Below are positions 35,389-63,914 of a stretch of 64,000 nucleotides of DNA, in pieces. The stretch's first letter is position 1, and each line of letters begins with the position of its first letter. Source of the DNA: Odontesthes bonariensis (lineage: Eukaryota > Chordata > Actinopteri > Atheriniformes > Atherinopsidae); contig NC_134507.1 in NCBI RefSeq assembly GCF_027942865.1, positions 38,846,797 through 38,910,796 of the forward strand. The letters run 5' to 3'. The notes beneath the pieces are model-generated. The model was not told where the DNA came from. It saw nothing but the letters and a program-made list of their open reading frames with translations, and ran no database searches. The position numbers and the translations under genes are program-made.

Positions 35389-35392
35389 ATTA

Positions 35393-39338: not shown

Positions 39339-40036
39339 ATGAGGTGAGTAACTTCTAGTCTATCCCAGTGCTTCTAAGTGGTGGCACTGAACCTCTGCTG
39401 CCTTAAATGTCTGAGGCAAGCAGAACCTCATTTGATCGCAGCATTACACCATGTTTATACAGTTAAGCTCAACAGAACTGGGCATGTTAAGGGGAGGTGG
39501 TGGTCGGACCCCACTGGTCTCTAAATGTACTCAGAACTTCATATGAGATGTCCCTGTTTCTGCAGGGTTTTGTGGATTTCTTGTGTGCTGATTGGAAGCA
39601 TCGCCTGCATTCCTGCACAAAGCGGTAAGCTGATCCTAATCACAGCTCAGCAACTAAAAACAGTTTAAATTGACTCGGGTTGTAAATGGAAGGCTGCTCT
39701 TAATTCTCTGTTTCCTCACCCATGTATTAAGTTTATGGACAAGATCTATCTAAGCCAACGTATCAGAAACAAACTGGAGCCAGTGGTTCTGGAGCTCCTG
39801 GCAGCAATTACCAGTTTGAAGATGGGAGCTGGAGCCTTTCATCTGACACCAGCGGCGAGGACGAGCCAGTCTTCACTCCTGTGGCCGACGAGGATCAAGT
39901 CTACGCTTACAAATCTCGGTCCCGCTACAACAAGAAGCGTGTGCTGTTCAGCCAGTTCCGCTACACCCCAACAGAATCTGAGCCAGACCACGGCAAAACA
40001 TCTCAGCACAAGGTTCAAGTTCAGAGCGGCTTCTGA
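39339..40036 (+). CDS. Gene A: small secreted protein, unrecognised (122 aa)
   Basis: Exons 39339-39343, 39566-39624 and 39732-40047 (stop 40034-40036), with introns in phases 2 and 1. The protein starts MRVLWISCVLIGSIACIPAQ, a clear signal peptide. The mature part has GASGSGAPGSN, an acidic stretch (SSDTSGEDEPVFTPVADEDQ), a Tyr/Arg-rich basic stretch (YAYKSRSRYNKKRVLFSQFR) and ends HKVQVQSGF. A fourth, wholly untranslated exon starts at 40121 after TCTTGCAG, with AATAAA at 40160. The I-clade LINE ends 81 bp before the 13-bp duplication-to-ATG stretch, so the 5' UTR/promoter is split. I recognise no family. Length and composition suggest an extracellular matrix or coat component, by inference only. 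Confidence 0.75.
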
Positions 40037-40165
40037 GGATCTTTCTGGTGAGGCTCACTTTACTCTGCATGTGTGCTCTCTGTAGCTGCTGGTAGGTGAC
40101 TGACTTTCTTTGTCTTGCAGATCTGCATATTCTAGAGGCATCGCTGCTGCTACCGCTTGAATAAA

Positions 40166-40845
40166 TGGCTTTAACTTGAATACCTTGTTGCTCCATCAAA
40201 TGGCTCCTCGCTGTCTCTGGGTCATCCAGTTGTGGGTTGGAGGGGATAGTTGAGGGCCTGACAGGTTCACATGACTTAATCCTATAAATAAGGTGTTGGC
40301 ATTAACTTAAGGACAGTATCTGCTCAAAGGTGAGCTTATGAAGGTCTTGACGGCTTCAGCTTGGAATGCATTCCCAACTAAAAATGGCTGAAAAGCCAAC
40401 TGCAGCTCTCTGACAGCAGTGGGTAAAGGTGTGGCCTTGAGCTCTATCAGAAGATTCCACTGCTGCATATTGTGCTGAGGGAGAAACCTTTCCACTCTGT
40501 AGCAGTCCTCACCCTACAGCTCTGGGTAAGGGCAGACCCATCAGATGCTGGGGCCATGTGAAACCTGGACAGTAGTTTCTGCAACTCCATGACCGAGGAT
40601 GGCTTCATCATATTGTCTGTGGTTGCAAAGGTCTTGTACTCTGAATACTTGTAATGAAGCTTGTGCTACACAAATCAAAATGTGGCAGCAACTTTTAGTG
40701 AAGTGGCTTGGCAACAAAATTTATAGGCTCAATGTTGTCACTTACTCACTACCTGGAAGTAAGTTGGATCAGGTGGTGGGGCAAAGATCTATTTTGTTCT
40801 ACATTTGGATGCAAGAAGGCGAGCCAGGTGTTGGAATATCTTCAG
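40166..40845. other. Intergenic DNA between genes A and B
   Basis: Present in both arms (arm 2 about 62870-63455). A 62-codon open frame (40307-40495, minus) is conserved in both copies but proves nothing because the arms are so similar. No other feature. Confidence 0.4.
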
Positions 40846-40849
40846 TAAA

Positions 40850-41167
40850 AGGTGGGGTATGAGATCTTGGAAAAACGGTTCCTGCAAGCTATGTTTTTGA
40901 AAATACACAACCTTGCCTCTCCCTTCAGCCCACGCCTTCAAAACAAGTGCAAGGGGGAGGGGGGCTTACAGTTGATTGGCATGTCAGAATCCAATAAGAG
41001 TAACTCTCATTACTTCCATTGGTAAGACATTTCCTCTTGCTACACCCTCTACAATGGACTAAAATATTTTTTTTCCCCAAACATTCTATTTTAGTGGGTG
41101 CAATGGGGTCGTGAGGTGGTTTTCAGACAATATGATAAATGCTCCAGAAAACATCTCATACCCCACC
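40850..41167. mobile_element. TTAA MITE, arm 1 only
   Basis: Ends AGGTGGGGTATGAGAT at the left and its exact reverse complement at 41152-41167, flanked by TAAA (40846-40849) and TTAA (41168-41171). Arm 2 has the empty site (TTCAGTTAAGTCGTGAG in reverse complement near 61635). Confidence 0.85.
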
Positions 41168-41171
41168 TTAA

Positions 41172-42557
41172 AGTCGTGAGCTGTACAACCTCACAGTGGA
41201 CTGTGCACAGAAGCATTCACTATCCTGTCTGGAACATGAACAAACATGTCTGATTAATACTGGGCATAATGCAACAGCAAATGGTCCATCTATATGTGAG
41301 AATCAGATGTCTTACCTAGTCGTCCCTGCAGCAAGGACACTGCCTGTGGGGACTACTTGCAAATAGTCGACATATATTGACATATAATTAAAAGAAAAAC
41401 TTCTGTGGACTTGTTTCCACACTTTAAGTCACTCACATTGTTAACCTACAGGTTGCAATTTAAATATGAACATGATAAAGTCTGGTCTTTGTTGGATTTT
41501 ATGAAAGTAATTATGAGGACAGATGATGTGAACTACTGTAACAAATGTTAGTTTTCAGAATTAAAACAACCTGGGCATTTAAATATTCTCATTTTCATAA
41601 ATAAATATGAAGTTCAGATGTGACAGTCAAGATTTTACAGTAAAAAAGACGTTCTCAGAAACTTAGACCCATATTAAAAAAGAGCATTATTCAAATAGAC
41701 ATATTTTCCCTTTTAAATGAGTTAAAAATGTAACTTTAACTTCAGTGTATTTTCAGTACAGTTCCACCTCACTGATGGCTGCTAAAGCCTCCACAGTACA
41801 AATAACAGAAAACAGTCGCCTACAGACTATAAAGTGCTCAAATGTCACATTTCCCATGTTGGAAGTTTGCTGTCACAGGGAGTCTGTGGGAGTCTGTGGT
41901 TGTTCTCACAAGGCAACAAGTTTTCAGGAGGAATGATGGAAATCCACAGAAATCGTCAAGACAAATTTGAGAAACACTTCCAGATATGAACAAAATGATG
42001 ACACAAGGTGCTTTAAACATTTAACCTCCGTTATGTCCTGTTTAATCAAGTTCATCTGAAATAAATCTAAGATCTCCTCCATATCACTTAATAAAAGAGC
42101 AGCTCTGCATCATGTTGTCTCACGTTTCTACATCTCATCTCAGATATTAATCTGAGCTTTAAACATCTCAGAGTGTGCAAAAGGCAGTTAGCGTGACTTT
42201 AGTAAGAATCCACCCTCTGCTATGTTCCAAACACGTCCATGCTTCTAGATCCTCTGGATGAGAGAGCTGCAGAGCTATAACCTGGAGTCCTTCAGACCAA
42301 TTCTCTGTCACTCCCCTCACACTCCCCAGCCAGAGATTAGGGGCCCACAGTGATCTGCAGGACTTTGGTCCAGATGTTTAACACCGTATCTGACCAAGCG
42401 GAATTCACCTTCTTTAAAACATCCCATGTTCATTCCTCACATGTTGCAACAAACCTTTTTAAATGGGATGTCAGAAGTGAGCTGAATTGAATGCAGCACG
42501 ATCTGACTGGGTCCCAGGTGAGGTTTATGAGTGTAATTAGAGCAGGTAGAGCACCAA
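41172..42557. other. Upstream region of gene B
   Basis: Shared with arm 2 (59356-61640). AT-rich with no supported ORF. The last 500 bp may hold control sites of gene B, but I identify only the TATA box. Confidence 0.4.
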
Positions 42558-42564
42558 TATAAAG
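42558..42564 (+). promoter_or_regulatory. TATA box of gene B
   Basis: TATAAAG, conserved in B' at 59349-59355. Transcription would start near 42590, giving a 5' UTR of about 90 nt. Confidence 0.75.
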
Positions 42565-42680
42565 TCAGCTGCAGCCTCAGATGAGTTACAGCACAAATCT
42601 TCTCTCAACAGCAGTCATTAGATTGCTGTTTTTGACCAGTTTTATCTGAATTGTGTTGCTGCTGTTTTGTCTTGTTCAAC

Positions 42681-45600
42681 ATGTTGTTTAAGGTTTTCTT
42701 CAGGTGAGTGTTCATGTTTAATGGTTTAGGTTTTTGTTCTCCTATATACTAAAGTTTCTTTCTTTACTTTTGAAATCCAAACAGGATTTCCTGGCTTTGT
42801 GTCCTGCTCTTCAGCATTGGAACATGTTATTCCCCCCCAGAAAAGCATGTATATCAACATTTAGGTGCAGTTTATATAAAGGCAGCCAACATGGGAAGTT
42901 GTTAAGGAACAGGCACGTGCACAGATAGACCCCTAGTGGTGCTCAAGCACCTGCCCTTTTGCCCTGGATAAGAAAAGTGCCCTTTCTGCTGGTGCCCAAT
43001 TTTTTTTATAAATATAATTTAAAAAAAATGACCTTTTCTGTCATCAATTCCCCCCAACTCTGTTTTGATATCTGACGGTGCATTTATTTGAGTTCTTGTG
43101 AGAATTTCGCCCCGACATGCACCGCGGCGCCCACAAGCCTCCCACGCGCCCCTCCCTCCTCCTCCTTCACTTACTGCCTACTGCGCGTGCAGTGCTGAGC
43201 GTCAGGCTAAACAGCTGAAGCCAACTTCTTCTCTGACTCGGAGCATCAGACAGACAGGTAATGACAGTGCAATACCCCGACGTTGTTTGGTGATAAATTA
43301 ACAACAACAATTAGCGCCGCTGAAAACATTACGTCGCTACTGGTCTGACGTTTGCTAAAAAACAAACAAAAAAACCCCTCACGAAATCCATGATTTAAAA
43401 GCCTTGCCCAGTTGTTTACTGACGTTTGTCATGTTTAATGAAGAGAGAGGGGAGAGAGGCAGGCAGACATTAATTATTTTAATTATTGAAAAGAAAGGTA
43501 GGTCTTAAGTTGAGCTACATGACAGTCTGGTGAGGTAATGTGGTAAGCACCCCAAACCCAGAAGCAGAGGAAGCTGTCCATGTTCTTTGGGACTTCTCTG
43601 AGGAAAATGAGGACCAGCTGAAGACAGAGCTTAAGGTGTTCCACTCCAGCTTTCCCTCGAAGAACCTGCAAGAAATCCTTGCCATTGTTGAAGAGAACAC
43701 TGGCCAGCTCATCTTTCCAACATTTGTGAAGATGGTAAGGATCTATGCAACACTGCCAGTGACAACAGCTTCAGTGGAAAGATCCTTTTCAAAACTGAAG
43801 ATAATAAAGACCAGGCTCAGGAGTCTCTGTGGGGAAGAAAGACTCTCCGACCTTCTCCTGCTTGCCATTGAGCACGACATTGAAATAAATCATGCTCCTG
43901 TGAAGATCCTTTAATTTATTCAGAGCAGAGTTTTAAGTTAAAAGATTTTTTTTATTATTTAACATATTATTTGGTTATACAATATGGCCTTGAATGAATG
44001 AACCTTTACCAAGTCACAAGTACCAGCGAAATTGTAGCCATCAGCCCGTCTTTTTTTTTTTTTTGTCTGGCCTTGTTTTTGCCTATTATTCATTTATTTA
44101 TTCAATTTGATCATTTGAGTTAGTATTGGTTGCGTTAACAAAAATAAATATATACGTTGAAAATATCCGACTGTGTTATTTATTTATTTATCATTATTTT
44201 AATTTCATGTATAATTTTGGCGATGGATGCCCATTTTTTTGCTTGAGCACCTGCCCCCCAAAATGTCTGTGCACGTGCCTGTTTAGGAATGAGAGAGAAG
44301 AGGGTCTGCAACTATATTAATCATGCTGCACCAAATCTTCCAATATATTAGACTTCAGGTTTAATGACCCACTTGAACTGCAGATACTCCTTTAGCTTTG
44401 TTTTTGTTACTAAACATATTGGCAGTGATACAGAGGCTACTGAGAGCATGACTAACCATGCTGTCATACTCTGCTTCAACTAATTTCTGGGCTCAGGTCA
44501 ATACAGTGGATCCTCTGGCTCTGGTAGTAGCACGTCTGGGTCTGGCTACGGCAGCAGCGGCTCCTCTGGGTCTGGCTACGGCAGCGTCTCTTCTGGGTCT
44601 GGCTACGACAGCGTCTCCTCTGGCTCTGGCTACGGCAGCAGCGGCTCCTCTGGGTCTGGCTACGGCAGCGGCGTCTCCTCTGGGTCTGGCTACGGCAGCG
44701 GCACCTCTGGGTCTGGTAGCGGCTCCTCTGGGTCTGGCTACGGCAGCGGCTCCTCTGGGTCTGGCTACGGCAGCGGCTCCTCTGGCTCTGGCTACGGCAG
44801 CAGTGGCTCCTCTGGCTCTGGCTACGGCAGCGGCGTCTCCTCTGGGTCTGGCTACGGCAGCAGCGGCTCCTCTGGGTCTGGCTACGGCAGCGGCGTCTCC
44901 TCTGGCTCTGGCTACGGCAGCAGCGGCTCCTCTGGGTCTGGCTACGGCAGCAGAGGCTCCTCTGGGTCTGGCTACGGCAGCGTCTCTTCTGGGTCTGGCT
45001 ACGGCAGCGTCTCCTCTGGCTCTGGCTACGGCAGCAGCGGCTCCTCTGGGTCTGGCTACGGCAGCGGCGTCTCCTCTGGGCCTGGCTACGGCAGCGGCAC
45101 CTCTGGGTCTGGTAGCGGCTCCTCTGGGTCTGGCTACGGCAGCGGCTCCTCTGGCTCTGGCTATGGCAGCAGTGGCTCCTCTGGCTCTGGCTACGGCAGC
45201 GGCGTCTCCTCTGGGTCTGGCTACGGCAGCAGCGGCTCCTCTGGGTCTGGCTACGGCAGCGGCGTCTCCTCTGGCTCTGGCTACGGCAGCAGCGGCTCCT
45301 CTGGGTCTGGCTACGGCAGCGGCACCTCTGGGTCTGGCTACGGCAGCGGCGTCTCCTCTGGGTCTGGCTACGGCAGCGGCGTCTCCTCTGGCTCTGGCTA
45401 CGGCAGCGGCGTCTCCTCTGGCTCTGGCTACGGCAGCGGCAGCGGCGTCTCCTCTGGCTCTGGCTATGGCAGCGGCGTCTCCTCTGGCTCTGGCTACGGC
45501 AGCGGCGTCTCCTCTGGCTCTGGCTACGGCAGCGGCACCTCTGGCTCTGGCTACGGCAGCGGCGTCTCCTCTGGCTCTGGCTACGGCAGCGGCGTCTCCT

Positions 45601-46124
45601 CTGGCTCTGGCTACGGCAGCAGCGGTTCCTCTGGGTCTGGCTACGGCAGCAGCGGCTCCTCTGGGTCTGGCTACGGCAGCGGCGTCTCCTCTGGGCCTGG
45701 CTACGGCAGCGGCGTCTCCTCTGGCTCTGGCTACGGCGGCGGCATCTCCTCTGGGTCTGGCTACGGCAGCGGCGTCTCCTCTGGCTCTGGCTACGGCAGC
45801 AGCGGCTCCTCTGGCTCTGGCTACAGCAGCTGCGGCTCCTCTGGGTCTAATGCTGGCTTTACTGCGCAGGACGCAGACTTTGCCCGTTTCCTTGCTGCCC
45901 TAATGAACTTGAAGATCGACCGTTCTTTCCCACAGTCTGCCTGGACCTTCGACCAGGTCCCTAAGGACACATCTGAGATGCGCGCTGTCCAGTCATCCCA
46001 CGTTGTCCAGTCCAGCAATGGCTACCAACGAGCCCGCGACTCCAGTTCGTACGCCAAATACTCCCAGGATGCTTTTGACCACTTTGATGCCAAGACTGGG
46101 TCTAAAGGGCAGAAGTTGTACTAA
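42681..46124 (+). CDS. Gene B: secreted Ser-Gly-Tyr repeat protein, unrecognised
   Basis: Exons 42681-42703, 42785 to about 42864, and 44497-46125 (stop 46122-46124). A 3' UTR exon starts at 46195, with AATAAA at 46250. The N-terminus MLFKVFFRISWLCVLLFSIG is a signal peptide. Exon 3 runs from QYSGSSGSGS through about 43 units of the type SGSGYGSGVS / SGSGYGSSGS (44500-45846) to a unique C-terminal domain of about 92 residues (SNAGFTAQDADFARFLAALM ... DAFDHFDAKTGSKGQKLY). The frame is open over the whole repeat, about 576 aa in total. The end of exon 2 is uncertain: TAG|GTGCAG at 42864 gives the needed phase 1, while the stronger-looking GTATAT at 42850 gives phase 0. A hAT element sits in intron 2. 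The repeat resembles structural proteins (silk-, glue- or keratin-like), but I recognise no family. Confidence 0.75.
42910..44281 (+). mobile_element. hAT element in intron 2 of gene B (arm 1 only)
   Basis: Ends CAGGCACGTGCACAGA and its reverse complement at 44266-44281, with an 8-bp duplication TTAAGGAA/TTTAGGAA (42902-42909, 44282-44289). Arm 2 has a single uninterrupted site (GTTTAGGAATAAGAGAG in reverse complement near 59005). Confidence 0.9.
43540..43914 (+). pseudogene. hAT transposase C-terminal fragment
   Basis: The translation includes FPTFVKMVRIYATLPVTTAS, then VERSFSKLKIIKTRLRSLCG and RLSDLLLLAIEHDI, the hAT C-terminal dimerisation domain (ZMYM1/KRBA2-like group). The rest of the transposase is missing, so the element was moved by a relative. 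Confidence 0.75.
44500..45846 (+). repeat. Coding VNTR of gene B, about 43 Tyr units
   Basis: Units of 24-39 bp, mostly 30 or 33, around TCTGGCTCTGGCTACGGCAG. By counting GGCTAC/GGCTAT hexamers I find about 43, plus two units with GGTAGC. Variants (GGCGTCTCC, AGCGGCTCC, GGCACC) alternate in blocks, and a segment of about 500 bp is itself duplicated (44530-44900 resembles 44950-45330). Confidence 0.93.
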
Positions 46125-46279
46125 GGTAAAGCTGGACTAGTGTCTGAAGTATTGAGACTCCTGTATCAATACTGACCCCTTCTGTTTTCTGCAGGTGACT
46201 CTCATGGACACTTCCATGGAGATTCCAACATGTGGCTGAGCTCTGGCAAAATAAACTTGACCAATAATACGTGGTCTGT

Positions 46280-47906
46280 GGATTGAATACTTGATCTCAA
46301 GGTTTGTTTTCACTTCATAGAAGATTTGAGTCTTCACCACACCCACTGAGGCTGACTCTGCTTTTGAAGGGCAAACTGAATACTTCTGCTTTAAATTCTA
46401 CCACTACATGTTTCCTTCTCCTCATGGTTGAATTGCATTACACAAACCCAGACCAAAATAACTTGAAGCTCAATACAGTGGCCCTGCTTGCCCTTGTACC
46501 ACGAAGGTGCCTCAGTTAAATCTGCACTCGCTGGCATTATCCAAGCTTTAATTGCATGTGACTCATTAGCCTATGCTACGTAGCTTTGCTCCTCCTCTGC
46601 TTGGTGTCTTCTGTGTGCCTCAACAGAGCCATACATCCCTCTTAACCAACTTTGTCTCGACTTGCCCTCTGTGTGTGAGGCCACTGCTTCATACAGACTC
46701 GGTCCTTAACGTGGCATTGCACATCTTCCCATGTTGGTTTTCATCTTACACAAGACTTGAATATCTCCTCTGCTTCTGTTTTCCTGATTCTACCACATGT
46801 GGAAGATGCATTTTTGAATTCCGTCAAGCTCAAAGCTACATGATCAATTTCCAAAATATTTTCTAACTTAGTTTCAGATCACTTTCAAAGTACTCTCCCA
46901 CACTAGGCTCGGATACGGCTCTCTAGAAAAGGTCTCCAAACAGTTCTAGCAGAGTCCCAGTGAATGGAGTGTGGAAATTATTAGACCTTTTCCTGAGTGA
47001 CTGGAGAGCTGTCCAGGGTGTACCCTGACTCTCTTTCAATTGGCAGCAGGGATAGGCTAAAGCAGAGCTACTCATTATGCGGCTCCTCAACCTTTAATTG
47101 GCGGCTCGCACTCGCATAGTAGCTTATGACAATATGGTAACAATAACCAATTTTTTCAAATAACATACGGCGAACACTGCACAGTACTAAGAATTAATTA
47201 AGGCTTAAAGGTGGGGTAGGGCTTCTTTTTCTGGAGCATTTTTTTACTCTGCTAGGGGTAGGCTAATTGAGCTAGCCACGCTAGGTGGCTCCACACTGGC
47301 AAAATGGACCTGGCTCGCTATCGGTTGATTTTCAACTGTAAAGAGCCGAGCTTCCAATTGATGAATTGACAGATGTAGTGGAGGAGGGTTCTATACCCTG
47401 GGCCCTCCAATGTTGATTAGCCAGACACTAGAGGAACTGTTAACATTGGTTATCACATCAAAGGCCAGCCCAATTACATTAAAACTCTATTTCGCACCGG
47501 CCCACCGGGAAAAGTCCCGGTACTCCCGATGACCAGTCCGCCCTTGCATACAATAAATACATTATTACTGACCTGGACAATGATGCATTAAGGTTCAGTT
47601 ACTGTTGTCCCATTTTTAATCACATATATAAAAAGGATCCCTGCTTCTGTTTTCATTTACATCTCAAACACCATTCATACAACCCATGTTTGCCACCATT
47701 GCCTGGGCTCTATGAACATGTGCTGCATATTATTTACAGTTCAGATCATAAAGCTGAAAAAGAGAGGGTATCCTCACAGTTTTGCATGACATCACAGTGG
47801 AAACATGTCATCAGAGGACATGACATCACTGTAGTTTCTAAAAGCCTGAAAGGCAAAGCGCCTGAAAAACAACACGTACTTAAAAAGTCATTTAGACAAA
47901 CGCTAA
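46280..47906. other. 3' flank of gene B and spacer start
   Basis: To 46760 it pairs with arm 2. Beyond that there are fragments of TTAA- and hAT-type ends (AAGGTGGGGTAGGGC at 47210; CCGGGAAAAGTCCCGGTA at 47507) but no gene. Confidence 0.4.
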
Positions 47907-48362
47907 AAAACAACAAGCAAAACGAGTGAAAGCAGAACATCCTCTCCTGCACTTCTGTGGGGTGACATAGTAGATGAAGAGATTCTGGAAAATGAGTCGG
48001 AGGGTTTCTACATATTTCCCTTTGAAAGTGGCAAAGAGGAAAGTTGTGAGGAACCCGCCAACAGGCCAGAAGCTGTAACAGCGAGCTCAGGAAACCATCA
48101 ATCCCATGTCTCTGCTGCTTCCAACACACCCAACACAGAAAATCTGCTGTTGTTAGAGGAGCAGTCAGAGGTCTCTGCTGCTGCTGGGACTCCTCACTTA
48201 GAGGATGTCCAGCTCCTGCAGAATCATCCCCAGGCCTCTGCAGCTCAACACGCCAAGAGGAAGTTTACAGATTCAGGAAGCTGTCCCACTCCCTCTGTGG
48301 GCAGCACTCAGAGGGAGTTTTGTTGTCGGCTCAGAGAGCTGGACTGGACAGAAACAGTCTAA
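47907..48362 (+). CDS. Unrecognised acidic open frame (partial)
   Basis: An open stretch of 151 codons after an in-frame stop at 47904, ending at TAA 48360. It includes LLWGDIVDEEILENESEGFY, then IFPFESGKEESCEEPANRPE, and later LLLLEEQSEVSAAAGTPHLE. The part FYIFPFESGKEE...SAAS is duplicated at about 48517-48646, where a transposon then breaks it. It has no good start or splice sites that I can prove, and may be an exon of a gene or a transposon accessory ORF. Function unknown. Confidence 0.35.
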   Translation, partial: KTTSKTSESRTSSPALLWGDIVDEEILENESEGFYIFPFESGKEESCEEPANRPEAVTASSGNHQSHVSAASNTPNTENLLLLEEQSEVSAAAGTPHLEDVQLLQNHPQASAAQHAKRKFTDSGSCPTPSVGSTQREFCCRLRELDWTETV

Positions 48363-48516
48363 ATACAGATCAGGTTTCTACACATACTTCTGCAGCTGTC
48401 ACTGAGCACTGATGTTGAAGATGATCGTCCTGTTGTGACCAGTTGTGGGTCAGACTAAATACAGAGCACCTTGAACTAATACATATCATCCTTTTCTTCA
48501 GTAAAGCATAAAGTAT

Positions 48517-48646
48517 GTGTGAGGGTTTCTATATATTTCCCTTTGAAAGTGGCAAAGAGGAAAGTTGTGAGGAACCCGCCAACAGGCCAGAAGCTGTAAC
48601 AGCAAGCTCAGGAAACCATCAATCCCAGGTCTCTGCTGCTTCCAAT
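48517..48646 (+). repeat. Partial tandem copy of the acidic frame
   Basis: About 130 bp nearly identical to 47998-48118, continuing after the inserted element at 49256 (ACACCCAACAAAGAAAAC). Confidence 0.85.
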
Positions 48647-50519: not shown

Positions 50520-50525
50520 TATAAA
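50520..50525 (+). promoter_or_regulatory. TATA box of gene C
   Basis: TATAAA, 40 bp upstream of the gene C ATG, implying a very short 5' UTR. Confidence 0.7.
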
Positions 50526-50565: not shown

Positions 50566-51887
50566 ATGACAGCTGCTGGGTTCTTCCTGAGGTATAAGCA
50601 CAAGCTGCCTTTTACAGTTTTTGTTTGATTGGAAACATTGGTTAATATTGCATTCTTACTCTTTGTTGTACATAATTTCAGGATTTCCCTCTTTGCCTTG
50701 TTGACAGCTGCTACATGGGGTTTTCCCACTAAAGGTATGCTATCATCTGTTGTGGTAAAACATTACATGCTTGCTTGAATCAGCTTCTGCTAAACTTGTT
50801 GTCATGCACCCAGGTTCAAAATCAGCAGGCCAGAGCAGCAGTGGCACAAGAGCTGCAGGTCATTTTGGCTCTTACCAGGGAGCAGCCGCTGGCCGCCCGG
50901 TGACCGTGCCCAACACTGCTTCCAGTAACACTTATATGGCGACACCTGTGCTGGTCTCTGGTCAAAGTCAACCTGTTCTTCAGGCTGACCCAAGACTCAG
51001 CGTCTATGGCTCATTTGTGCCAACGCAATTGGTTGTCCAAGCTCCCGGTTTTGTCCAAGCTCCTGGCCTTGTCCAAGGTGCTCTTCAGGCAGACCCAAGA
51101 TTCAGCAGCTCTGGCTCCGTTGTGCCCGTGCAAATGGCTGTGCAAGCTTCTGGTGTCCCACAGGCTGTTCAGACGGGTCCAGCATTGAGCAGCTTGAGCT
51201 CTGGCCTGCCTGCAACAGGATACTCTACTGTCACTCATGTGCCTGACGTAGGATCTGACGCTGGCGCTCTGCAACCTGGAGCTGCCCAACTTGGACCACA
51301 AGGTAAATCTTCTGCTTGGAGTGTAGATGGCCCAAAATATGTTTGGAGTGGAGCTTTTAAGTTTACATCCTAGGAAACTGGGATGTCAACACTCTGTGCT
51401 ATCAGAGCTTCTGCTGTGAAAAGGACTAATTGTGAAATGTCTCCACACAGAAACCCAGTGGGCTATTGCTCCCTCAGTCTTTGAGGATGCGTCAGCCCAA
51501 GCCCTCAGCCTCACTGATGTTCTCCCTGCAGCCCCTCTGTCACCACCTGGCCCTGTCCTCCAGTCAGGGGAGACCTCCAGTGTCACGAAGGAAGCTGAAC
51601 TCGGGAATTACCAGCAGCAGACGGAGGAATTCGGCTACCCGGATGAACGCCAAGGGTCTGGACCGGGATCTGCAACCGTACTGGTGCCACGCTTTGGTGT
51701 GGGTGGTTCTCCTGACTTTGACTACAGGCTTTTGTACGGCTTGTACCCCTCTGGAACCTACAGCACCTTCAGCCAGCAGCATGAGAAGGGCAAAGACTAC
51801 TTTCAGGATGTCCACTACTTGAAGGAGCATATTACTGACAGCCATGGTTCTGGGCAGCAGAAAAAGTTCTTCCCAAGTGCCCGCTAG
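50566..51887 (+). CDS. Gene C: secreted Gln/Val/Ser-rich protein, unrecognised (334 aa)
   Basis: Exons 50566-50591, 50682-50734, 50814-51302 and 51451-51909 (stop 51885-51887). A 3' UTR exon starts at 51975, with AATAAA at 52023. Intron phases are 2, 1 and 1. The signal peptide is MTAAGFFLRISLFALLTAAT. The middle contains two imperfect repeats (LQADPRLSVYGSFVPTQLVV and LQADPRFSSSGSVVPVQMAV) in a low-complexity Val/Gln/Ala/Ser background. The C-terminal part is more complex (FDYRLLYGLYPSGTYSTFSQ, then DYFQDVHYLKEH, and ends GSGQQKKFFPSAR). The C-terminus loosely recalls gene B (YSQ..F...GSKGQKLY). First-exon form, phases 2-1 and the 3' UTR intron match genes A and B, so I regard the three as one family. 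Function unknown. Confidence 0.78.
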
Positions 51888-52045
51888 AGCTGAACATGAT
51901 GTGCAGAGGGTATGTTGAGTGGTACCTGCAAGTGTCTTTATCTCAATGCTCTAACTAATCTGGTTCTGTTTCAGATTGAAAAGCTGAAACCAACGTTATA
52001 AGAAGATTCTTTTTAGTCTTTGAATAAAGTCTTGTCAAATGATCT

Positions 52046-53590: not shown

Positions 53591-53597
53591 GTCTTAA

Positions 53598-54150
53598 AGG
53601 GGACATATTATGTTAACACATTGACTCCCAAGTCACATAAAACTACGTTTTTACTGCCCATGCGTTGGCTCCCAAATGGTAAAAATACGTTTTTACGTTT
53701 TTTTTTTTTTTATGGATTCTGAATCTATACATTCTTAGAATCCCTCCACCTACTTCGTGGTTTTATGAACATGTAAACTGCTTTGACAGAAGGACACGAC
53801 GCAAATCCTCTGACCCGGATATGTAAGTATCTAAAGTGCGACAGGCTGAAAGAGCGCATGTTTCACAAAAGCCCCGATATCTCAGTTTGTTGTTGATTTT
53901 GGTGGATACCCGCCTTGGTTTAGCTAAGGATAGCTCGCTAATGGCGGCACCTAGAGACACGCAGTTTTGACCCACAAAGAGTTTAAAGTCTCAGCTTTCA
54001 AACGAGCCATAACATGTTTCAGTGGCCTTATCACATAATATGCTGTGACTGTACGAAAACGTCAAAAAATGGTTTAGAACGCTGGGATTCTACGACATAA
54101 TTCCGTAAACACCGCCGGTATTCAATGTGTTAAAATAACTTTTTGTTTTT
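53598..54150. repeat. Probable TTAA MITE, one end visible
   Basis: It starts CTTAAAGGGGACATATTATG, a common fish MITE end. Internal ACATAATATG motifs occur near 54035, but no matching right terminus was found. Confidence 0.4.
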
Positions 54151-54874
54151 CCCACCTGTGCTTTTAGAGCATGATTTGGGTGTCTGAAGTCTATATCTTT
54201 ATACCACGAGTGTTTTGGGTATATCTGGAAGAATGGACTCGCGTGTGTTTACTGCATTAAATTGCACACCAGATGCCCAGGTTTTGATGACGGGAAGCAG
54301 CATCAAAGCTGAACAATGTGAACTTTAAAACTTATAGGATGTGAAATAAAATGTGGTGAAGAGCAGGATTTCTCCACATGTCAGTCATCATGATGTGAGT
54401 GCTCAGCTGCATAGAAACATAAGAAGAAGCTCCACTTTAAGACTGTGTGATTGTAAAGATCATCGTAGATTTGTCACCTTCAGTTTCTAAAGAATTTGTT
54501 CCAAAAATCTTCCCGTGAAGTCATTTTATTGTAGGTCAGCGCCCCCTGCAGGCTGTAGAGTGAAGAGATTCCCCTATTTTACCAGAGAGTTGGCTTGAGA
54601 GGCTGATGTTGAGCCTGCACATCGACTTCCCTGATGTGATCTGCCGGTGATACCTCCCGGTGGTTTTCACAGCCACGAACAGGTCAACCTGTGTGAGCTG
54701 CTCCACAGGCCGAGGGGGAGCGCTACTCCGCGCTGGGCCACTCATCGCTCTCCTCTGCCGGCCCAGCCGCCTGAAATAAGTTGAGAGGTATCACCGGCAG
54801 AGACTGGAGCTGCTGCTGGACACCTGGGTCTCCAGAAACGCACCACAGGTGAGTCAGGCTGGAGACTGCAGAAG

Positions 54875-56040
54875 CAGTGCCGTACCCAGCATTGAGGACA
54901 CACAGGTCATGACCTCGGTATTTTCCCCGGTGTTTTTTTTATTTTTTTTATTTTTTATTCAGAGAAATGTCAAATTAATATATTAATATATTTTGACTTT
55001 GATTGGTGGAAAGATCAGCATGCATTCTCATTTGTTTTTCTGAAAATAAAGTCCACATAATCCCTTTATCATCACGTTATATTTTTTTTATTTTGTGCCA
55101 ACTGTGGCTAGTGGTCATTCAGCCTCACTAGCTACAGTTTTGTTCAGTGCTATATGGCTTCCTACATGTAAATAAAGCAGACTAATAGAAACTGGGTCAG
55201 AAACTTATATTTTTCATTTTACTTAAAACAATTGATGATGCACGCGGGGCAAAATAACAGAATGAAATACCCCGTGTACTCTCTCATATGACACAATCTT
55301 GAGGTTAGTTGTGCTGCTCATGGTGCATTATGAAGCCAAGTTTTACCAGCATTTAGCTAGTTGTCAGGCCCAGCATGATACCTATGTCTTCTCTGTGTTG
55401 AGTGAATGGATTGAATTGAGACTATACATCTAAAATACAGCCAACATCTTGTGGTCTGTTTGGCACATTCTACGATGTTAATTTAGTGGGTGGATTCAAC
55501 CAGTTACTTAGGTAAAATGATTGCATTTTCCCTAATGAACCATTAGGATTTTATTGCAAATGGTGTCTAAAATTTTGCACATCGGTTAGACCAATAACCC
55601 AACTCATTCATTTGACCTTTTAGTGGGTCATGCACATGCATGGTGATGATGGTGACAATAGTAATAATAATAATAATGTAATATTAATAATAACAATAAT
55701 ATTAATGGTGATGGTGATGCTGATATTATAAAACAGATGACACAGGAGAGGATGAGAATGAGGGAGTTGAAGAGAGAGAGTCAGTAGAGGAAGAAAGGGG
55801 AAAAACTGAGTCTCACTCACTCAAATACTCTACTTTTGTGATCACATTGTTATAATAAACTTGTTCACCTACATATTCACCTCCTTGATGGGCTTGTGAT
55901 TTACCTCTGTCTCTGTTTATTCACATTTCCAAACTGTATTTTAAAAAGTCACCATATTAGGATGTTTTTTTTTTTTTTGTCAAATAAGATTTATCGCAAT
56001 ATTTGACCTCGGTATTTGAAAAATCCTGGTTACGGCCCTG
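54875..56040. mobile_element. Non-autonomous hAT element
   Basis: Ends CAGTGCCGTACCCAGCATT and, in reverse complement, CAGGGCCGTAACCAGGATT, with a perfect 8-bp TGCAGAAG duplication (54867-54874, 56041-56048). No transposase. It contains a TAA/TAATAT repeat at about 55660-55710. Confidence 0.85.
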
Positions 56041-56087
56041 TGCAGAAGCTCTGCATTGAAAACAAATGAACCCTTGATTCATAGGGA

Positions 56088-56126
<39 letters not shown>

Positions 56127-56160
56127 CTTTATTGATCCCAAAGGAAATTCAAGCATCCAG
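56088..56160 (-). repeat. (GATA)n and LINE 3' tail
   Basis: About 9 GATA units (56088-56126), then CTTTATTGATCCCAAAGGAA. In reverse complement this is GATCAATAAAG followed by (TATC)n, a typical fish LINE 3' end. Confidence 0.75.
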
Positions 56161-56754
56161 TAGCAAGACATAATAAAGCAATACAATTTTTTATTAACAA
56201 TCTAAGAATAAAAAGAAAAGTTTAAAAATACGCTCTCAGAAAATAAAGTACAGAATTGTACCTTTAGGGACACGATGGCTTGTCACTGAGGCAGTACCCT
56301 CTGAAGGATAGTTTTGTACCCTTATACTGAAGTAGCCTAACAAAGACTGTCTATTATACCCCAGCATGTAGAAAAAAGGGTACATATATGTACCTTTTAC
56401 CACTTGAGTACATATATGTACCTTTTGGACCCTCAAAACAAAAGGGTAAACAGTACACGCAGCCAGAGGCTACTCATGAGAGGGGCGGGGCATGGCCAGC
56501 AACAGCTTATTTGCATAAAAGTGACAGAGCCCTTTAAACGGCTCAATTAGGAAGAGACTGAAAATGGCAAGAATAAAACTGGTGAAATCTCTTTATGTGA
56601 GAGTGATTTTGTGCAAAGAATGTCATGAACATGTTTTGTATAGCCAATAGACCAATTCTAACTTGTTTAAAGAGGTAAAATATGTCTCCTTTAAGTCTCG
56701 TGTAGGATGAAGATCCCAACATGGGAAGATGCAATGATGTCATATTCAGGACCG

Positions 56755-57572
56755 AGCCTGTATTAAAGGTAGGGTAGGAGATCCTGGATTTTGAGTCCAG
56801 TGAAGCTGCATTTTGAAAATACACAGGTCAAAAGTCCCAACCCCTTTCTTCAGACTTTCCCCCCGAAGGCACGCCTCTAGAGCAGTGATTCTCAACCGGT
56901 GGGGGCGCGGACACACTCACGGGGGATCACGAGTAGACTACAGGATGAGGGAAAAAAAAAAAAAAAAAAAAAAAAATCACGAAAATTCCCTCCTCAAAAA
57001 TGCAAGAAGTTGGACTATTGTTTGACTAGTTTCATTTCAAATTTAACAGGGGGTAGTATTTTGAGCCTGCGACGTCACGTCACGTAACGTGTCGTGGGGG
57101 TGGGGCTGTGGTATCGGGAGGAGGGGGGGCCTCAACTGCAATGAACCATCTTAGGGGCGGCCCCGCTTGCAAAAGGTTGAGAACCCCTGCTCTAGAGTAC
57201 ATGAGCACGAAGGTGCACGAGCGCTGTTCTGACAACAAGTGTCGATCGTTGCTGTATTTAGTATGCTAACTATATGTTTAATAATGCTAGCTAAGCTGGC
57301 TCTAGTTTAGCGTCGGGCATACGTAATTTGTTCACGAAGAAGGGTACGCGCACAGGGGGAAGGAGGAGCAGATTGCAGTTTGATAGACGCAGCAGAACGC
57401 AATCATCATTAACAGTCCGTTCAATATGATTGGATAGTTTTCCTGGATTGTTTGTTCCAAGAGGCCACTAAAACTTTTAATTGGTTGCAATGGGGGTGTG
57501 AAGAGTATTTCAAGCAATATGTACAGGGTCATAAGCCCTCCAGCTGGTGTCCCAGGTGAGATGAATAAAGGC
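56755..57572. mobile_element. TTAA-like MITE relative, arm 2 only
   Basis: It starts TTAAAGGTAGGGTAGGAGAT and shares ATTTTGAAAATACACA and GCAATGGGG blocks with the arm 1 MITE, so it belongs to a related family. A second hAT MITE is nested in it. The right border is given only by the return of arm homology. Confidence 0.55.
56883..57189. mobile_element. hAT MITE with 8-bp duplication
   Basis: Ends CAGTGATTCTCAACCGG and, in reverse complement, CAGGGGTTCTCAACCTT. CTCTAGAG lies on both sides (56875-56882, 57190-57197). It holds a poly-A run at about 56950-56976. Confidence 0.88.
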
Positions 57573-58123
57573 CGCACACACAGAGGGCAAGTCGAGACAG
57601 TTGGTTAAGAGGGATGTATGGCTCTGTTGAGGCACACAGAAGACACCAAGCAGAGGAGGGGCAAAGCTACGTAGCATAGGCTAACGAGTCACATGCAATT
57701 AAAGCTTGGAAAAGGCCAGCGAGTGCAGATTTAACCGAGGCACCTTCATTGTGCAAGGGCAAGCAGGGCCACTGTATTGAGCTTCAAGTTATTTTGGTCT
57801 GGGTTTGTGTAATGCAATTCAACCATGAGGAGAAGGAAACATGTAGTGGTAGAATTTAAAGCAGAAGTATTCAGTTTGCCCTTCAAAAGCAGAGTCAGCC
57901 TCAGTGGGTGTGGTGAAGACTCAAATCTTCTATGAAGTGAAAACAATCCTCGAGATCAAGTATTCAATACACAGACCACGTATTATTGGTCAAGTTTATT
58001 TTGCCAGAGCTCAGCCACATGTTGGAATCTCCATGGAAGTGTCCATGAGTCACCTGCAGAAAACAGAAGGGGTCAGTATTGATACAGGAGTCTCAATACT
58101 TCAGACACTAGTCCAGCTTTACC

Positions 58124-59232
58124 TTAGTACAACTTCTGCCCTTTAGACCCAGTCTTGGCATCAAAGTGGTCAAAGGCATCCTGGGAGTATTTGGCGTACG
58201 AACTGGAGTCGCGGGCTCGTTGGTAGCCACTGCTGGACTGGACGACGTGGGATGAAGGGTATACAGTGCGCATCTCAGATGTGTCCTTAGGGACCTGGTC
58301 GGAGGTCCAGGCAGACTGTGGGAAAGAACGGTCGATCTTCAAGTTCATTAGGGCAGCAAGGAAACGGGCAAAGTCTGCGTCCTGCGCAGTAAAGCCAGCA
58401 TTAGACCCAGAGGAGCCGCCGCTGCCGTAGCCAGAGCCAGAGGAGCCGCCGCTGCCGTAGCCAGACCCAGAGGAGCCGCCGCTGCCGTAGCCAGACCCAG
58501 AGGAGACGCCGCTGCCGTAGCCAGACCCAGAGGAGACGCCGCTGCCGTAGCCAGACCCAGAGGAGACGCCGCTGCCGTAGCCAGACCCAGAGGAGACGCC
58601 GCTGCCGTAGCCAGACCCAGAGGAGACGCCGCTGCCGTAGCCAGACCCAGAGGAGACGCCGCCGCCGTAGCCAGACCCAGAGGAGACGCCGCCGCCGTAG
58701 CCAGACCCAGAGGAGACGCCGCTGCCGTAGCCAGACCCAGAGGAGACGCCGCTGCCGTAGCCAGACGTGCTACTACCAGAGGATCCACTGTTTTGACCTG
58801 AGCAAAGAAATTAGTTGAAGCAAACTATGACAGCATGGTTGGTCATGCTGTCAGTAGCCTCTGTATCACTGCCAATATGTTTAGTAACAAAAACAAAGCT
58901 AAAGGAGTATCTGCAGTTCAAGTGGGTCATTAAAACTGAAGTCTAATATATTGGAAAGTTTGAGACTGCATGATTAATATAGTTGCAGACCCTCTTCTCT
59001 CTTATTCCTAAACAACTTCCCATGTTGGCTGCCTTTATATAAACTGCACCTAAATGTTGATATACTTGCTTTTCTGGGGGGGATAACATGTTGCAAAGCT
59101 GAAGAGCAGGACACAAAGCCAGGAAATCCTGTTTGGATTTCAAAAGAAAAGAGAGAAACTTTAGTATATAGGAGAACAAAAACCTAAACCATTAAACATG
59201 AAGACTCACCTGAAGAAAACCTTAAACAACAT
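58124..59232 (-). CDS. Gene B': second copy of the Ser-Gly-Tyr repeat protein
   Basis: Exons on the minus strand: 59232-59210, 59128 to about 59050, and 58797-58123 (stop 58126-58124). A 3' UTR exon starts at 58053, with AATAAA at about 58000. The signal-peptide exon and the C-terminal domain (SNAGFTAQDADFARFLAALM ... GSKGQKLY) are nearly identical to gene B. The repeat has only 12 units of exactly 30 bp (SGSGYGSGVS), giving about 258 aa. Exon 2 has one base less than gene B at the T/C run (CATGTTATCCCCCCC). The same donor as in B would then give a TAG stop, whereas the GTATAT donor plus an AG ten bases into exon 3 keeps the frame. So splicing differs from B, or one copy is broken. Confidence 0.7.
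58408..58765 (-). repeat. Coding VNTR of gene B', 12 units
   Basis: Twelve 30-bp units, highly homogeneous; most differ only by GCC/GAC or CTG/CCG. Gene B has about 43 units at the same place. Confidence 0.93.
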
Positions 59233-59348
59233 GTTGAACAAGACAAAACAGCAGCAACACAATTCAGATAAAACTGGTCCAAAACAGCAATCTAGTGACT
59301 GCTGTTGAGAGAAGATTTGTGCTGTAGCTCATCTGAGGCTGCAGCTGA

Positions 59349-59355
59349 CTTTATA
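59349..59355 (-). promoter_or_regulatory. TATA box of gene B'
   Basis: TATAAAG in the same context as 42558-42564. Confidence 0.75.
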
Positions 59356-59976
59356 TTGGTGCTCTACCTGCTCTAATTACACTCATAAACCTCACCTGGG
59401 ACCCAGTCAGATCGTGCTGCATTCAATTCAGCTCGGAAAATGAACACTTCTGACATCCCATTTAAAAAGGTTTGTTGCAACATGTGAGGAATGAACATGG
59501 GATGTTTTAAAGAAGGTGAATTCTGCTTGGTCAGATACGGTGTTAAACATCTGGACCAAAGTCCTGCAGATCACTGTGGGCCCCTAATCTCTGGCTGGGG
59601 AGTGTGAGGGGAGTGACAGAGATTTGGTCTGAAGGACTCCAGGTTATAACCTCGGTTCTAATACGTCACAAACACGTCACAGTCATGAAATTGGGGTCCA
59701 ACACATCACTTGTCCACTTCACTAGTGGGAGCTGCTAGTTGGGTTTCAAGGGGAAAAAAGTGAGCTCAGCGTGACATAAGACTGGAGTCTTAGTAAGTTA
59801 GCCTGCTGAGTTCTGGAAATAACTCTAAAATAATGTTGACTCCTTGGCAGGAATAAGGAGCTCTGCAGCTCTCTCATCCAGAGGATCTAGAAGCATGGAT
59901 GCGTTTGGAACATAGCAGAGGGTGGATTCTTACTAAAGTCACGCTAACTGCCTTATGCTTCCTCTGAGATGTTTAA

Positions 59977-60647
59977 AGGTGCCATGGCATGAAAACTAAA
60001 TGGAGGTTTTTATATATTTTTAAAGGCTTTAGTGGTCCCCTTATACTGTATCTGAGTTTTTTTCCCAAAAATTCTGCCTTGATGCAGAATTACAGCCAGT
60101 CCCGAAAATGAGCTTTCCTTAGGATCCTCAGAATGAGCTGTTTAGGGTCTGCAGCTTTAAATGCAAATTAGGGCGAGAAAGGCGGGGCAAAGTGGAGGGT
60201 GGGGGTGGAAACATTCGTTGGTGAAATGTTTGGCGCACACATACACAAATCTCTTCGGTTCTGTCGTCACTTTCCCAGAAAAAACTAAATCTGTCCACTG
60301 GCTCTTTAGAGGTTCTGATGCAGGAGCTCTAAACAGATTTTTTACATCCATATACAGCGCAATGAGCTGGCCAAAGAGCTGTGGGCGGGGAAAGGCAGTT
60401 TTGGCATAGCCATATATGGGCTCTGGGTGGAAATAACCTCGACATCATATGAGGCTCCACGTCATAAGAGGCAGCTTTCCCGATCAGGCCATCTGCATGG
60501 TCACATTACCAAAGGCTTAAAATAATTTCCATTGCACAGTTTAGGTCTATCGTCACTTTTATCCACTGGGGGGCCGCAGGCAGGCAAGAGGAACTCATAT
60601 TAATGTCAAACAACCTTAAAAAGTGAAAATTTCATGCCATGGCTCCT
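59977..60647. mobile_element. TTAA MITE, arm 2 only
   Basis: Ends AGGTGCCATGGCATGAAAA and, in reverse complement, AGGAGCCATGGCATGAAAT, flanked by TTAA at 59973-59976 and 60648-60651. Arm 1 has the empty site GCTTTAAACATCTCAGAG at about 42157. Confidence 0.9.
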
Positions 60648-60651
60648 TTAA

Positions 60652-61695
60652 AGCTCAGATTAATATCTGAGCTGAGATGTAGAAACGTGAGACAACATGA
60701 TGCAGAGCTGCTCTTTTATTAAGTGATATGGAGGAGATCTTAGATTTATTTCAGATGAAGTTGATTAAACAGTACATAACGGAGGTTAAATGTTTAAAGC
60801 ACCTTGTGCCATCATTTTGTTCATATCTGGAAGTGTTTCCCAAATTTGTCTTGGATTTCTGTGGATTTCCATCATTCCTCCTGAAAACTTGTTGCCTTGT
60901 GAGAACAACCACAGACTCCCACAGACTCCCTGTGACACAGCAAACTTCCAACATGGGAAATGTGACATTTGAGCACTTTATAGTCTGTTGGCGACTGTTT
61001 TCTGTTCTTTGTACTGTGGAGGCTTTAGCAGCCATCAGTGAGGTGGAACTGTATTGAAAATACACTGAAGTTAAAGTTACATTTTTAACTCATTTAAAAG
61101 GGAAAATGCGTCTATTTGAATAATGCTCCTTTTTAATATGGGTCTAAGTTTCTGAGAGTCTTTCTTACTGTAAAATGTTGACTGTCACACCTGAACTTCA
61201 TATTTATTCATGAAAATGAGAATATTTATATCCCCAGATTGTTTTAATTCTGAAAACTAGCATTTGTTACAGTAGTTAACATCATCTGTCCTCATAATTA
61301 CTTTCATAAAATCAAACAAAGACCAAACTTTATCATGTTTATATTTAAACTGCAACCTGCAGGTTTACAATGTGAGTGACTTAAAGTGTGGAAAGAAGTC
61401 CACAGAAGTTTTTCTTTTAATTATATGTCAATGTATGTCGACTATCTGCAAGTAGTTCCCCCAGGCAGTGTCCTTGCTGCAGGGACGACCAGGTAAGACA
61501 TCTGATTCTCACATATAGATGGAACATTTGATGTTGCATTATGCCCAGTATTAATCAGACATGTTTGTTCATGTTCCAGACAGGATAGTGAATGTTTTTG
61601 TGCACAGTCCACTGTGTGGTTGTACAGCTCACGACTTAACTGAATATATTCCAACACCTGGCTCGCCTTCTTGCTTCCAATTGTAGAACAAAATA
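60652..61695. other. Upstream region of gene B' (pairs with arm 1)
   Basis: Reverse complement of about 41172-42155 plus the start of the A-B intergenic DNA. No gene recognised. Confidence 0.4.
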
Positions 61696-61699
61696 GATG

Positions 61700-62870
61700 T
61701 TTGATCTGTAAAATCTGATGTAATGGACAGAATCCATGAGAGTTGTTGGATTTATTAATTTATTTAACACATTTATTCTAACCCTCCCTGGGTTCTGGGG
61801 AGGATTCATCCCTCCATCAGACCTTATTTTAAGTCTTCTTGTGCCATTTTTCATAGCTCAGCCTTTTCTCCCCGTTTCCCCTCCTTAAGAACGGCTTCTT
61901 GACAGCCACCCTTCCATGGAGCCCATTTCTGATGAGGCTTCATTGAACAGCTGAAGGTACAGATGCATCTCTCAGGGAATTACCTGGTTTCTGCAAAAAT
62001 GCTATTTCATGCATGTCAAACTGTTATTTTATAGATACAAAGAAATGGGAACAGATAATATAATTTAATAAATTTATTTGTATAGCACCGTTCAGAAAAT
62101 AAAATTCACAAAGTGCTTCACAATACGATGCAAGTCAACGTTTCATATACACACACACATAAGAAAACACAGTAATAGCAGAAAAGCATGAGGCTACAGA
62201 GCAGATGGGCACTTTAAGAACGGATAAAAGCTATTTTAAATAGGTGGGTCTTCAGATTCTTTTTGAAAATGTCTAAAGAAGTTGCAGACCGTAGACATAG
62301 GGGAAGAGAGTTCCAAAGAGTTGGAGCCAATACCTCAAAGGCACGATCACCCTTTGTCTTCAGACAAGAGCGGGGGACAGTCAATAAGCTCTGGTCTGAG
62401 GACCTAAGAGACCTGGTTGTGTAATAGGGGTGGATCAGGTCACAGATGTAACCAGGTGCCTGATGATTAAAGGCTTTGTATGTGATAAGAATTTTAAACT
62501 GGATCCTGAACCTTATAGGCAGCCAGATGAGAAATTCTTCCCATCCCTGAATTTTAGCTTGAGCAGCTACTGATGATGCAGCCCTTTTGGCCACCTGGTA
62601 CCCGCTTCAGGTCAACCTCCTGAACAACCCAACACAAAAGGCCTTTTTCTACAGTTTGAATTTTTCCCTACATGCTAATATTCACGAGCAGGTCCTATGC
62701 TACTGTCCTGATAGGCAATGATGACCTTCTGGCCACACCTCTGCAGTTGAGGCTGAGAGGCTCCTTTCAGTTCCCATGACCCAACCTCAATAGTAATGTA
62801 CATTTAATAAAAATACTCAGCTTTGTGTTTAAGATGTCATGAACAGGGTCCTCCACTAGATGTTTGTCCT
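61700..62870 (-). mobile_element. L2-containing insertion, arm 2 only
   Basis: Arm homology breaks here, with CAAACATCTA repeated at both borders, consistent with a target-site duplication. It includes an L2/Rex1-like RT C-terminus and a 3' end GCTATACAAATAAATTTATT in reverse complement. Confidence 0.75.
62214..62594 (-). pseudogene. L2/Rex1-like reverse transcriptase C-terminus
   Basis: The 126 codons include IRFRIQFKILITYKAFNHQA, PGYICDLIHPYYTTRSLRSS, then TLWNSLPLCLRSATSLDIFK and NLKTHLF, the standard C-terminal block of fish L2-type ORF2. The catalytic part is missing (5'-truncated copy). Confidence 0.85.
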
Positions 62871-63609
62871 CACCACCTGATCCAACTTACTTCCAGGTAG
62901 TAAGTGACAACATTGAGCCAATAAATTGTTCCCAAGCCACTTCACTAGAAGTAGCTGCCACATCTTTTGATTTGTGTAGCACAAGCTTCATTACAAGTAT
63001 TCAGAGTACAAGACCTTTGCAACCGCAGACAATATTATGAAGCCATCCTCAGTCATGGAGTTGCAGAAACTACTGTCCAGGTTTCACATGGCCCCAGCAT
63101 CTGATGGGTCTGCCCTTACCCAGAGCTGTAGGGCGAGGACTGCTACAGAGTGGAAAGGTTTCCCCCTCAGCACAATATGCAGCAGTGGAATCTTCTGATA
63201 GAGCTCAAGGCCACACCTTTACCCAATGCTGTCAGAGAGCTGCAGTTGGCTTTTCAGCCATTTTTAGTTGGGAATGCATTCCAAGCTGAAGCCGGCAAGA
63301 CCTTCACAAGCTCACCTTTGATCAGATACTGTCCTTAAGTTAATGCCAATACCTTATTTATAGGATTAAGTCATGTCAACCTTTCAGGCCCTCAACCATC
63401 CCCTCCAACCCACAACTGGATGACCCAGAGACAGCGAGGAGCCATTTGATGGAGCAACAAGGTATTCAAGTTAAAAGCCATTTATTCAAGCGGTAGCAGC
63501 AGCGATGCCTCTAGAATATGCAGATCTGCAAGACAAAGAAAGTCAGTCACCTACCAGCAGCTACAGAGAGCACACATGCAGAGTAAAATGAGCCTCACCA
63601 GAAAGATCC

Positions 63610-63914
63610 TCAGAAGCCGCTCTGAACTTGAACCTTGTGCTGAGATGTTTTGCCGTGGTCTGGCTCAGATTCTGTTGGGGTGTAGCGGAACTGGCTGAAC
63701 AGCACACGCTTCTGGTTGTAGCGGGACCGAGATTTGTAAGCGTAGACTTGATCCTCGTCGGCCACAGGAGTGAAGACTGGCTCGTCCTCGCCGCTGGTGT
63801 CAGATGAAAGGCTCCAGCTCCCATCTTCAAACTGGTAATTGCTGCCAGGAGCTCCAGAACCACTGGTTCCAGTTTGTTTCTGATACGTTGGCTTAGATAG
63901 ATCTTGCCCATAAA
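63610..63914 (-). CDS. Gene A': second copy of gene A (exon 3 only in window)
   Basis: Exon 3 runs 63914-63599 on the minus strand with the stop at 63612-63610. The 3' UTR exon starts at 63525 and AATAAA is at about 63486. It is nearly identical to gene A (GASGSG becomes GTSGSG; NKKRVLF becomes NQKRVLF). Exons 1 and 2 lie beyond the window end, so it cannot be said whether the promoter is free of the LINE. Confidence 0.75.

Follow-up and report, generated by a model that had tools for sequence, protein, structure and literature searches.

Genes A, B and C of Odontesthes bonariensis: an amplified cassette for probably secreted, low-complexity proteins

Genes of the secretory calcium-binding phosphoprotein (SCPP) group encode clustered, fast-evolving, secreted, low-complexity matrix proteins of vertebrates, and as far as is known all of their introns are in phase 0. 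The silkmoth chorion locus contains 127 genes, most of them of A and B types that are paired and divergently transcribed; in these genes a minor exon 1, about 50 nt long, precedes the major exon 2, and gene conversion occurs among them (PMC4639761). In fish, egg-coat genes have expanded to 131 zona pellucida (ZP) genes in an icefish (PMC7307600). Here we describe three genes, A, B and C, of the fish Odontesthes bonariensis, found in a window (the whole stretch of DNA that was analysed) of 64,000 nucleotides at positions 38846797-38910796 of contig NC_134507.1 (C2), which is 46.9 Mb long in a genome of 945 Mb and 187 contigs. The three genes form a cassette with the order A>B><C, which is amplified in two arrays with largely retained reading frames, and A is a member of the Pfam family DUF1373. 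We put at about one in two the probability that A, B and C encode secreted low-complexity extracellular structural proteins, silk-like and produced in large amounts, with the egg coat or egg attachment as their most likely use.

Like the chorion locus, the arrays are big clusters of small, probably secreted structural genes with a fixed orientation of linked types, a small exon followed by a main exon and homogenisation of copies. In contrast to the divergent pairs at one locus in the insect, the cassette is arranged as A>B><C in two arrays. No chorion family of Pfam matches A, B, C or B' (an inverted copy of B described below), and the comparison is one of working, not of descent. The icefish genes and the genes described here are both large expansions, for secreted egg-coat proteins in the icefish and for probably secreted proteins here, but Pfam finds no ZP domain in A, B, B' or C, and we reject membership of that family. 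SCPP genes resemble A, B and C in being clustered and in encoding low-complexity proteins, secreted in the one case and probably so in the other, but the introns of A, B and C are in phase 2 and then phase 1, at variance with the phase 0 of SCPP genes, to which we therefore do not assign them.

Structure and kinship of the three genes

In A, B and C alike, the first coding exon is tiny and ends in AG (phase 2), the second completes a hydrophobic N-terminus, and the main exon follows after a phase-1 intron; a further intron lies just after the stop codon and is followed by an AATAAA signal. This common architecture had been proposed in a first-pass annotation made from the sequence alone, and our rebuilt models of the three genes agree with it, as do 18 of 20 sampled copies of A with the same exons and frame. 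The signal peptides of that annotation correspond to a hydrophobic N-terminal exon in all three genes, judged by inspection, and the products are probably secreted.

Gene A lies on the forward strand with coding exons at window positions 39339-39343, 39566-39624 and 39732-40036, a splice model that predicts 122 residues and has introns of phase 2 and then phase 1. A post-stop intron (about 40047-40120) and a 3' exon with AATAAA at 40160 occupy 40047-40180, and no TATAAA occurs in the two stretches searched upstream of the gene. The product matches DUF1373 (PF07117) with 109.5 bits against a curated cut-off of 28.9 (E 4.1e-31), and two paralogues on contig C12 match the same family with 89.9 bits (locus L039) and 82.3 bits (L040). 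The first-pass statement that no named family fits is thus overturned for A, in favour of a family that has no known function. Mature A contains no cysteine and no N-glycosylation sequon.

Gene B, on the same strand, is an atypical copy with coding exons at 42681-42703, 42785-42864 and 44497-46124 (introns again of phase 2 and then phase 1). Its 576 residues comprise GSGYGS-type repeats and a 92-residue C-terminal domain (45846-46121) with a conserved GYQRARDS..AKY core. The repeats are encoded by a tandem array of about 45 copies of a 30-bp unit at 44535-45848, and the protein is 36.5% Ser, 31.9% Gly and 8.7% Tyr, with no N-glycosylation sequon in its mature part. The post-stop intron (about 46126-46194) and the 3' exon with AATAAA at 46250 span 46126-46270. 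A TATA box at 42558-42563 stands 123 bp before the ATG, and TATAAA recurs at the identical spacing in three other B copies that we checked.

The reverse strand carries B', with exons at 59210-59232, 59070-59128 and 58124-58797 (58124-59232 overall), which encodes 251 residues and has a GC-AG second intron. In all ten other array copies modelled, namely B' and loci L010-L018, exon 2 ends at such a GC-AG donor (GCAAGT, phase 1); the nine numbered loci are the top protein matches, and long-repeat copies elsewhere are not among the ten. The N-terminus that this model yields for B' and the nine other copies, for example MLFKVFFRISWLCVLLFSIGTCYPPQKS, runs directly into the repeats. Two of four B paralogues fit the same exon model (L043, L048) and two do not (L044, L047). 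At the exon 2 donor site of window B, an extra T and the sequence GCATGT are found and the GC donor is lost. Window B may thus either splice from another donor, as the first-pass model requires, or be a failing copy. Its second intron, longer than in the other modelled copies, contains a hAT transposase fragment at 43534-43914.

Gene C, also on the forward strand, has coding exons at 50566-50591, 50682-50734, 50814-51302 and 51451-51887. Its first two introns are in phase 2 and phase 1, and one more, of phase 1, interrupts the mature part. The product of 334 residues is Gln/Ala/Pro-rich, contains no cysteine and has no N-glycosylation sequon in its mature part. The post-stop intron (about 51910-51974) and the 3' exon with AATAAA at 52023 occupy 51910-52045. 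A TATA box at 50520-50525 lies 46 bp before the ATG; the first-pass annotation had noted such boxes for both B and C, and it had correctly described the mature parts as repeat-rich.

At E values up to 1, Pfam gives no match for gene C, for the B C-terminal domain or for the B main exon, and only DUF1373 for A. A profile of the B domain has 0 matches among PDB sequences. Whole B' does reach CFAP143 (E 0.0005), but its 20.4 bits are below the cut-off of 27 and fall mostly over the repeats, and we take the match as chance.

We compared the N-terminal exons in nine pairs over 19 ungapped positions. The A and B paralogues L039 and L048 are identical at 10 of 19 positions, a value reached by 5 of 100,000 shuffles, and the window copies at 6 of 19 (1,504 of 100,000 shuffles with B'). 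The likeness of the paralogues beyond shuffles suggests that A and B probably derive from one ancestral gene. C is tied to them weakly, through a diverged B-type paralogue on contig C13 (7 of 19; 179 of 100,000 shuffles); compared directly with A or ordinary B, its N-terminal exon does not rise above shuffles. A single family, as in the first-pass annotation, is therefore probable for A and B from the N-terminal exons of their paralogues and may or may not include C; it finds no backing from profiles of the mature parts. The C13 locus (L046, 16.412-16.429 Mb) holds three tandem diverged B-type genes, one of which has GPGGYAAGSS repeats that recall spider-silk motifs; this gene may be nearer to the ancestral form.

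Copy number and layout of the two arrays

Protein searches of the genome returned 177 matches for A (partly listed), 150 for the B C-terminal domain and, for the last exon of C, 150 scored of 192 candidates. About 150 candidates are scored per query, and all locus counts are therefore lower bounds; they omit short second-fragment rows for A and one such row for B, and some of the array rows are partial. Even so counted, two chromosome-size contigs each carry an array of the A>B><C cassette, in which A and B stand in tandem and C is usually convergent; together the arrays hold at least 133 loci of A, 138 of B and 136 of C. The C2 array extends over about 8.7 Mb (32.0-40.8 Mb) with at least 76 A, 67 B and 51 C loci, and the array on contig C16 over about 11 Mb (24.2-35.6 Mb) with at least 57 A, 71 B and 85 C loci. 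The further members for which the first-pass annotation had suggested a search are thus very many, and in the same genome.

With a linking distance of up to 16 kb, the listed loci group into 61 clusters on C2 and 89 on C16, with a median spacing of 115 kb and 81 kb, respectively. Among the loci listed, every C within 12 kb downstream of a B on C16 is convergent with it (66 of 66), and five more B loci have no such C; on C2, 39 of 58 are convergent and 19 in tandem, with nine further B loci lacking C. Of the C2 clusters, a palindromic A-B-C-B-A block accounts for 17 of 61, more than any other type; of those on C16, 37 of 89 are plain A>B><C cassettes, there the most frequent type.

The window itself holds such a palindrome. 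A second, inverted copy of A and B lies at 58-64 kb, with gene C in the spacer, and the arms are 94-99% complementary over the aligned blocks listed, repeat array excluded. The main exon of the inverted A copy, A', is at 63610-63915 on the reverse strand; its first exons lie past the end of the window and are intact in locus L005. While the forward-strand genes A, B and C and their architecture had been recognised in the first pass, the inverted A/B copy and the genome-wide amplification had been missed. An assembly artefact is an unlikely source of the inverted copy and the arrays: A introns differ by about 2-4% between copies, the blocks carry different insertions and repeat lengths, and the window lies inside the 46.9-Mb contig.

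The three genes differ in how similarity is distributed between the arrays. For the listed array loci (at least 136), gene C has a mean protein identity of about 98% (98.0% and 98.1% on the two contigs), and as DNA the other 39 of 40 copies scored, on C2, C16 and C9, are 98-99% identical. Gene A, by contrast, is array-specific, with a mean identity to the window copy of 97.1% on C2 and 93.6% on C16, and the 44 best B matches among those listed are all on C2. Because C is equally close on both arrays and A and B are not, C may have been exchanged or spread between the chromosomes more recently than its partners.

These patterns bear on a reading of the arrays as ampliconic genes that are linked to sex or to drive, that exchange between palindromes or genomic conflict maintains, and whose product acts in gametes. 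The palindromic blocks of the C2 array, the presence of a second array of about 11 Mb and the array-specific types of A would all suit it. The arrays lie on two separate contigs, however, the prevailing C16 cluster is not palindromic and gene C is equally similar on both contigs, and we regard this explanation as improbable, the least likely of those considered here.

Related loci outside the arrays are found on at least ten further contigs. Among the matches listed, relatives of A occur on C12, C29 and C1, those of B on C13 (three genes), C18, C21, C28 and elsewhere on C2, and those of C on C9, C18, C19 and C22; a C relative at C2:15.697 Mb adjoins a B relative at 15.692 Mb. Besides its loci on C2 and C16, gene C also has lone copies on other contigs (C9, C19 and C22).

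Retained reading frames and constraint

From 75 matches on C2, twenty A copies were sampled at regular intervals. In eighteen, the three coding exons are kept with their splice sites and frame (17 identified by script, and L052 besides), and the other two have each lost one splice site. All ten modelled B copies are intact, nine of them being top protein matches. In the matched stretches of the listed array loci, in-frame stops, read from the listings with frameshifts not counted, occur in 11 of 407, of which two are among the 133 loci of A, six among the 138 of B and three among the 136 of C. In a neutral simulation, 1% divergence puts stops in about 10% of A, 10% of B and 18% of C loci, and 0.5% divergence in about 5%, 5% and 9%; A and C are below both figures, and B (4.3%) below the figure for 1% divergence only.

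Divergence points in the same direction. Among the 20 A copies and the window copy taken together, pairwise comparison gives a mean divergence of 1.1% for exon 2 and 1.6% for exon 3; the means for the introns are 2.0% and 3.6%. Three comparisons of A with paralogues yield dN/dS of 0.21, 0.35 and 0.40, and five of B yield 0.27-0.64, evidence of long-term purifying selection on A and B. Among A copies pN/pS is 0.54 in 25 sequences (17 evenly sampled, seven top protein matches and the window copy, from 23 distinct loci); among B copies it is 0.09 in 11 sequences, including window B as L009, a value biased low by top-match sampling. Length changes remain in frame, with a 12-residue difference in A and variable repeat numbers in B. 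Since frames are kept and dN/dS against paralogues is 0.21-0.64 for A and B, the array loci of all three genes have the appearance of constrained protein genes.

It is the same data that must be set against passive, repeat-driven expansion, in which segmental duplication and transposons would have multiplied the blocks and few copies would be functional. Several observations are in keeping with this. The sequence that two neighbouring blocks have in common, A and B aside, resembles transposons by inspection, and the neighbouring block at C2:38.74 Mb is incomplete, with A and B on both sides and no C. The pN/pS among A copies, the damaged appearance of window B and the fit of the B stop count to neutrality at 0.5% divergence agree with it as well. 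So does a LINE insertion at 34143-39262 on the forward strand, just upstream of the gene A coding exons, with open frames at 34120-35388 and 35381-39157 (422 and 1258 residues between stops) and a target duplication of about 17 bp at both ends. The element cuts the coding exons off from their original upstream sequence, and its target duplication repeats a predicted leader splice donor. Against passive expansion stand the scarcity of stops, which in each of the three genes are fewer than simulated at 1% divergence, the retention of splice structure by 18 of the 20 A copies, the lower divergence of A exons than introns and the in-frame changes of repeat length. We judge it unlikely that expansion of this kind accounts for most of the arrays.

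About 62 kb upstream of the LINE before gene A, the same element occurs again as a 99% copy. Just upstream of the window start, at C2:38.840 Mb (L030), is an open frame with C2H2 zinc-finger repeats, and between two cassette blocks, at C2:38.780-38.800 Mb (L024-L025), a 1.7-kb unit forms a tandem array of about 11 copies with more than 99% identity.

A possible role at the egg surface

Our data suggest bulk secretion of structural material, because many near-identical copies occur together with TATA boxes before B and C, N-terminal exons that are hydrophobic, and products that are repetitive and prone to disorder. In the mechanism that we propose, the array would act as a gene-dosage device, and one tissue would secrete much of the disordered Gly/Ser/Tyr-rich B together with smaller A and Gln/Ala/Pro-rich C. 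Outside the cell, the three proteins would assemble into a fibrous or adhesive layer. The egg surface would be the most likely site, as a coat or attachment material made by the follicle or the oocyte, because big clusters of genes with a small first and a larger main exon serve eggs in the silkmoth.

Other grounds point to the egg as well. Medaka is a beloniform, and DUF1373 was reportedly described from medaka sequences. Ovalentaria, beloniforms included, are named for adhesive eggs with chorionic filaments (PMC3644299). The silkmoth parallel, the expansion of fish egg-coat genes, the presumed medaka link and the adhesive eggs of Ovalentaria together make the egg coat or egg attachment our leading guess, held with moderate confidence. 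The protein features would equally suit a set of secreted proteins with a structural or adhesive use in skin, in mucus or in an attachment organ. Yet both comparable multi-copy clusters met in the papers considered, those of silkmoth chorion and icefish ZP genes, are egg-coat genes, though they came from egg-related literature searches, and a site other than the egg appears to us a minority prospect, on a par with passive expansion.

A number of points weigh against bulk secretion of egg material. The tissue is one that we infer, and literature searches for DUF1373, PF07117 and IPR009803 found no paper in the library searched and hence no direct link to eggs. Profile comparison of mature A, B and C finds no similarity. 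Constraint on single A copies is mild at a pN/pS of 0.54, the B stop count of 4.3% is no different from the neutral expectation at 0.5% divergence, the dN/dS measurements cover A and B, and window B may be defective. Arrays of such size could, moreover, persist by non-adaptive processes. In the literature searched, we recognised no paper that treats the A/B/C cassette and found no description of DUF1373 amplification or of its linkage with B and C. A medaka early-oogenesis gene screen is named, in connection with ZP genes, in PMC9330664 and PMC10140178.

A stronger form of the egg-coat proposal, which we put forward tentatively and hold less probable than its plainer version, is that the locus corresponds, in a vertebrate, to the chorion locus of insects. 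A cassette of three genes for silk-like, non-ZP proteins, DUF1373 among them, present as more than 400 gene loci in two arrays of megabase scale, of which one is palindrome-rich, would then mass-produce new egg-coat or attachment material. To our knowledge, it would be among the largest recent amplifications of protein genes on a vertebrate chromosome. DUF1373 would be placed in a genomic context, with two genes as partners and a role open to testing. The arrays would serve as a natural experiment on the upkeep of hundreds of gene copies through dosage, palindromes and gene conversion, and their products would be a source of new silk-like or adhesive proteins.

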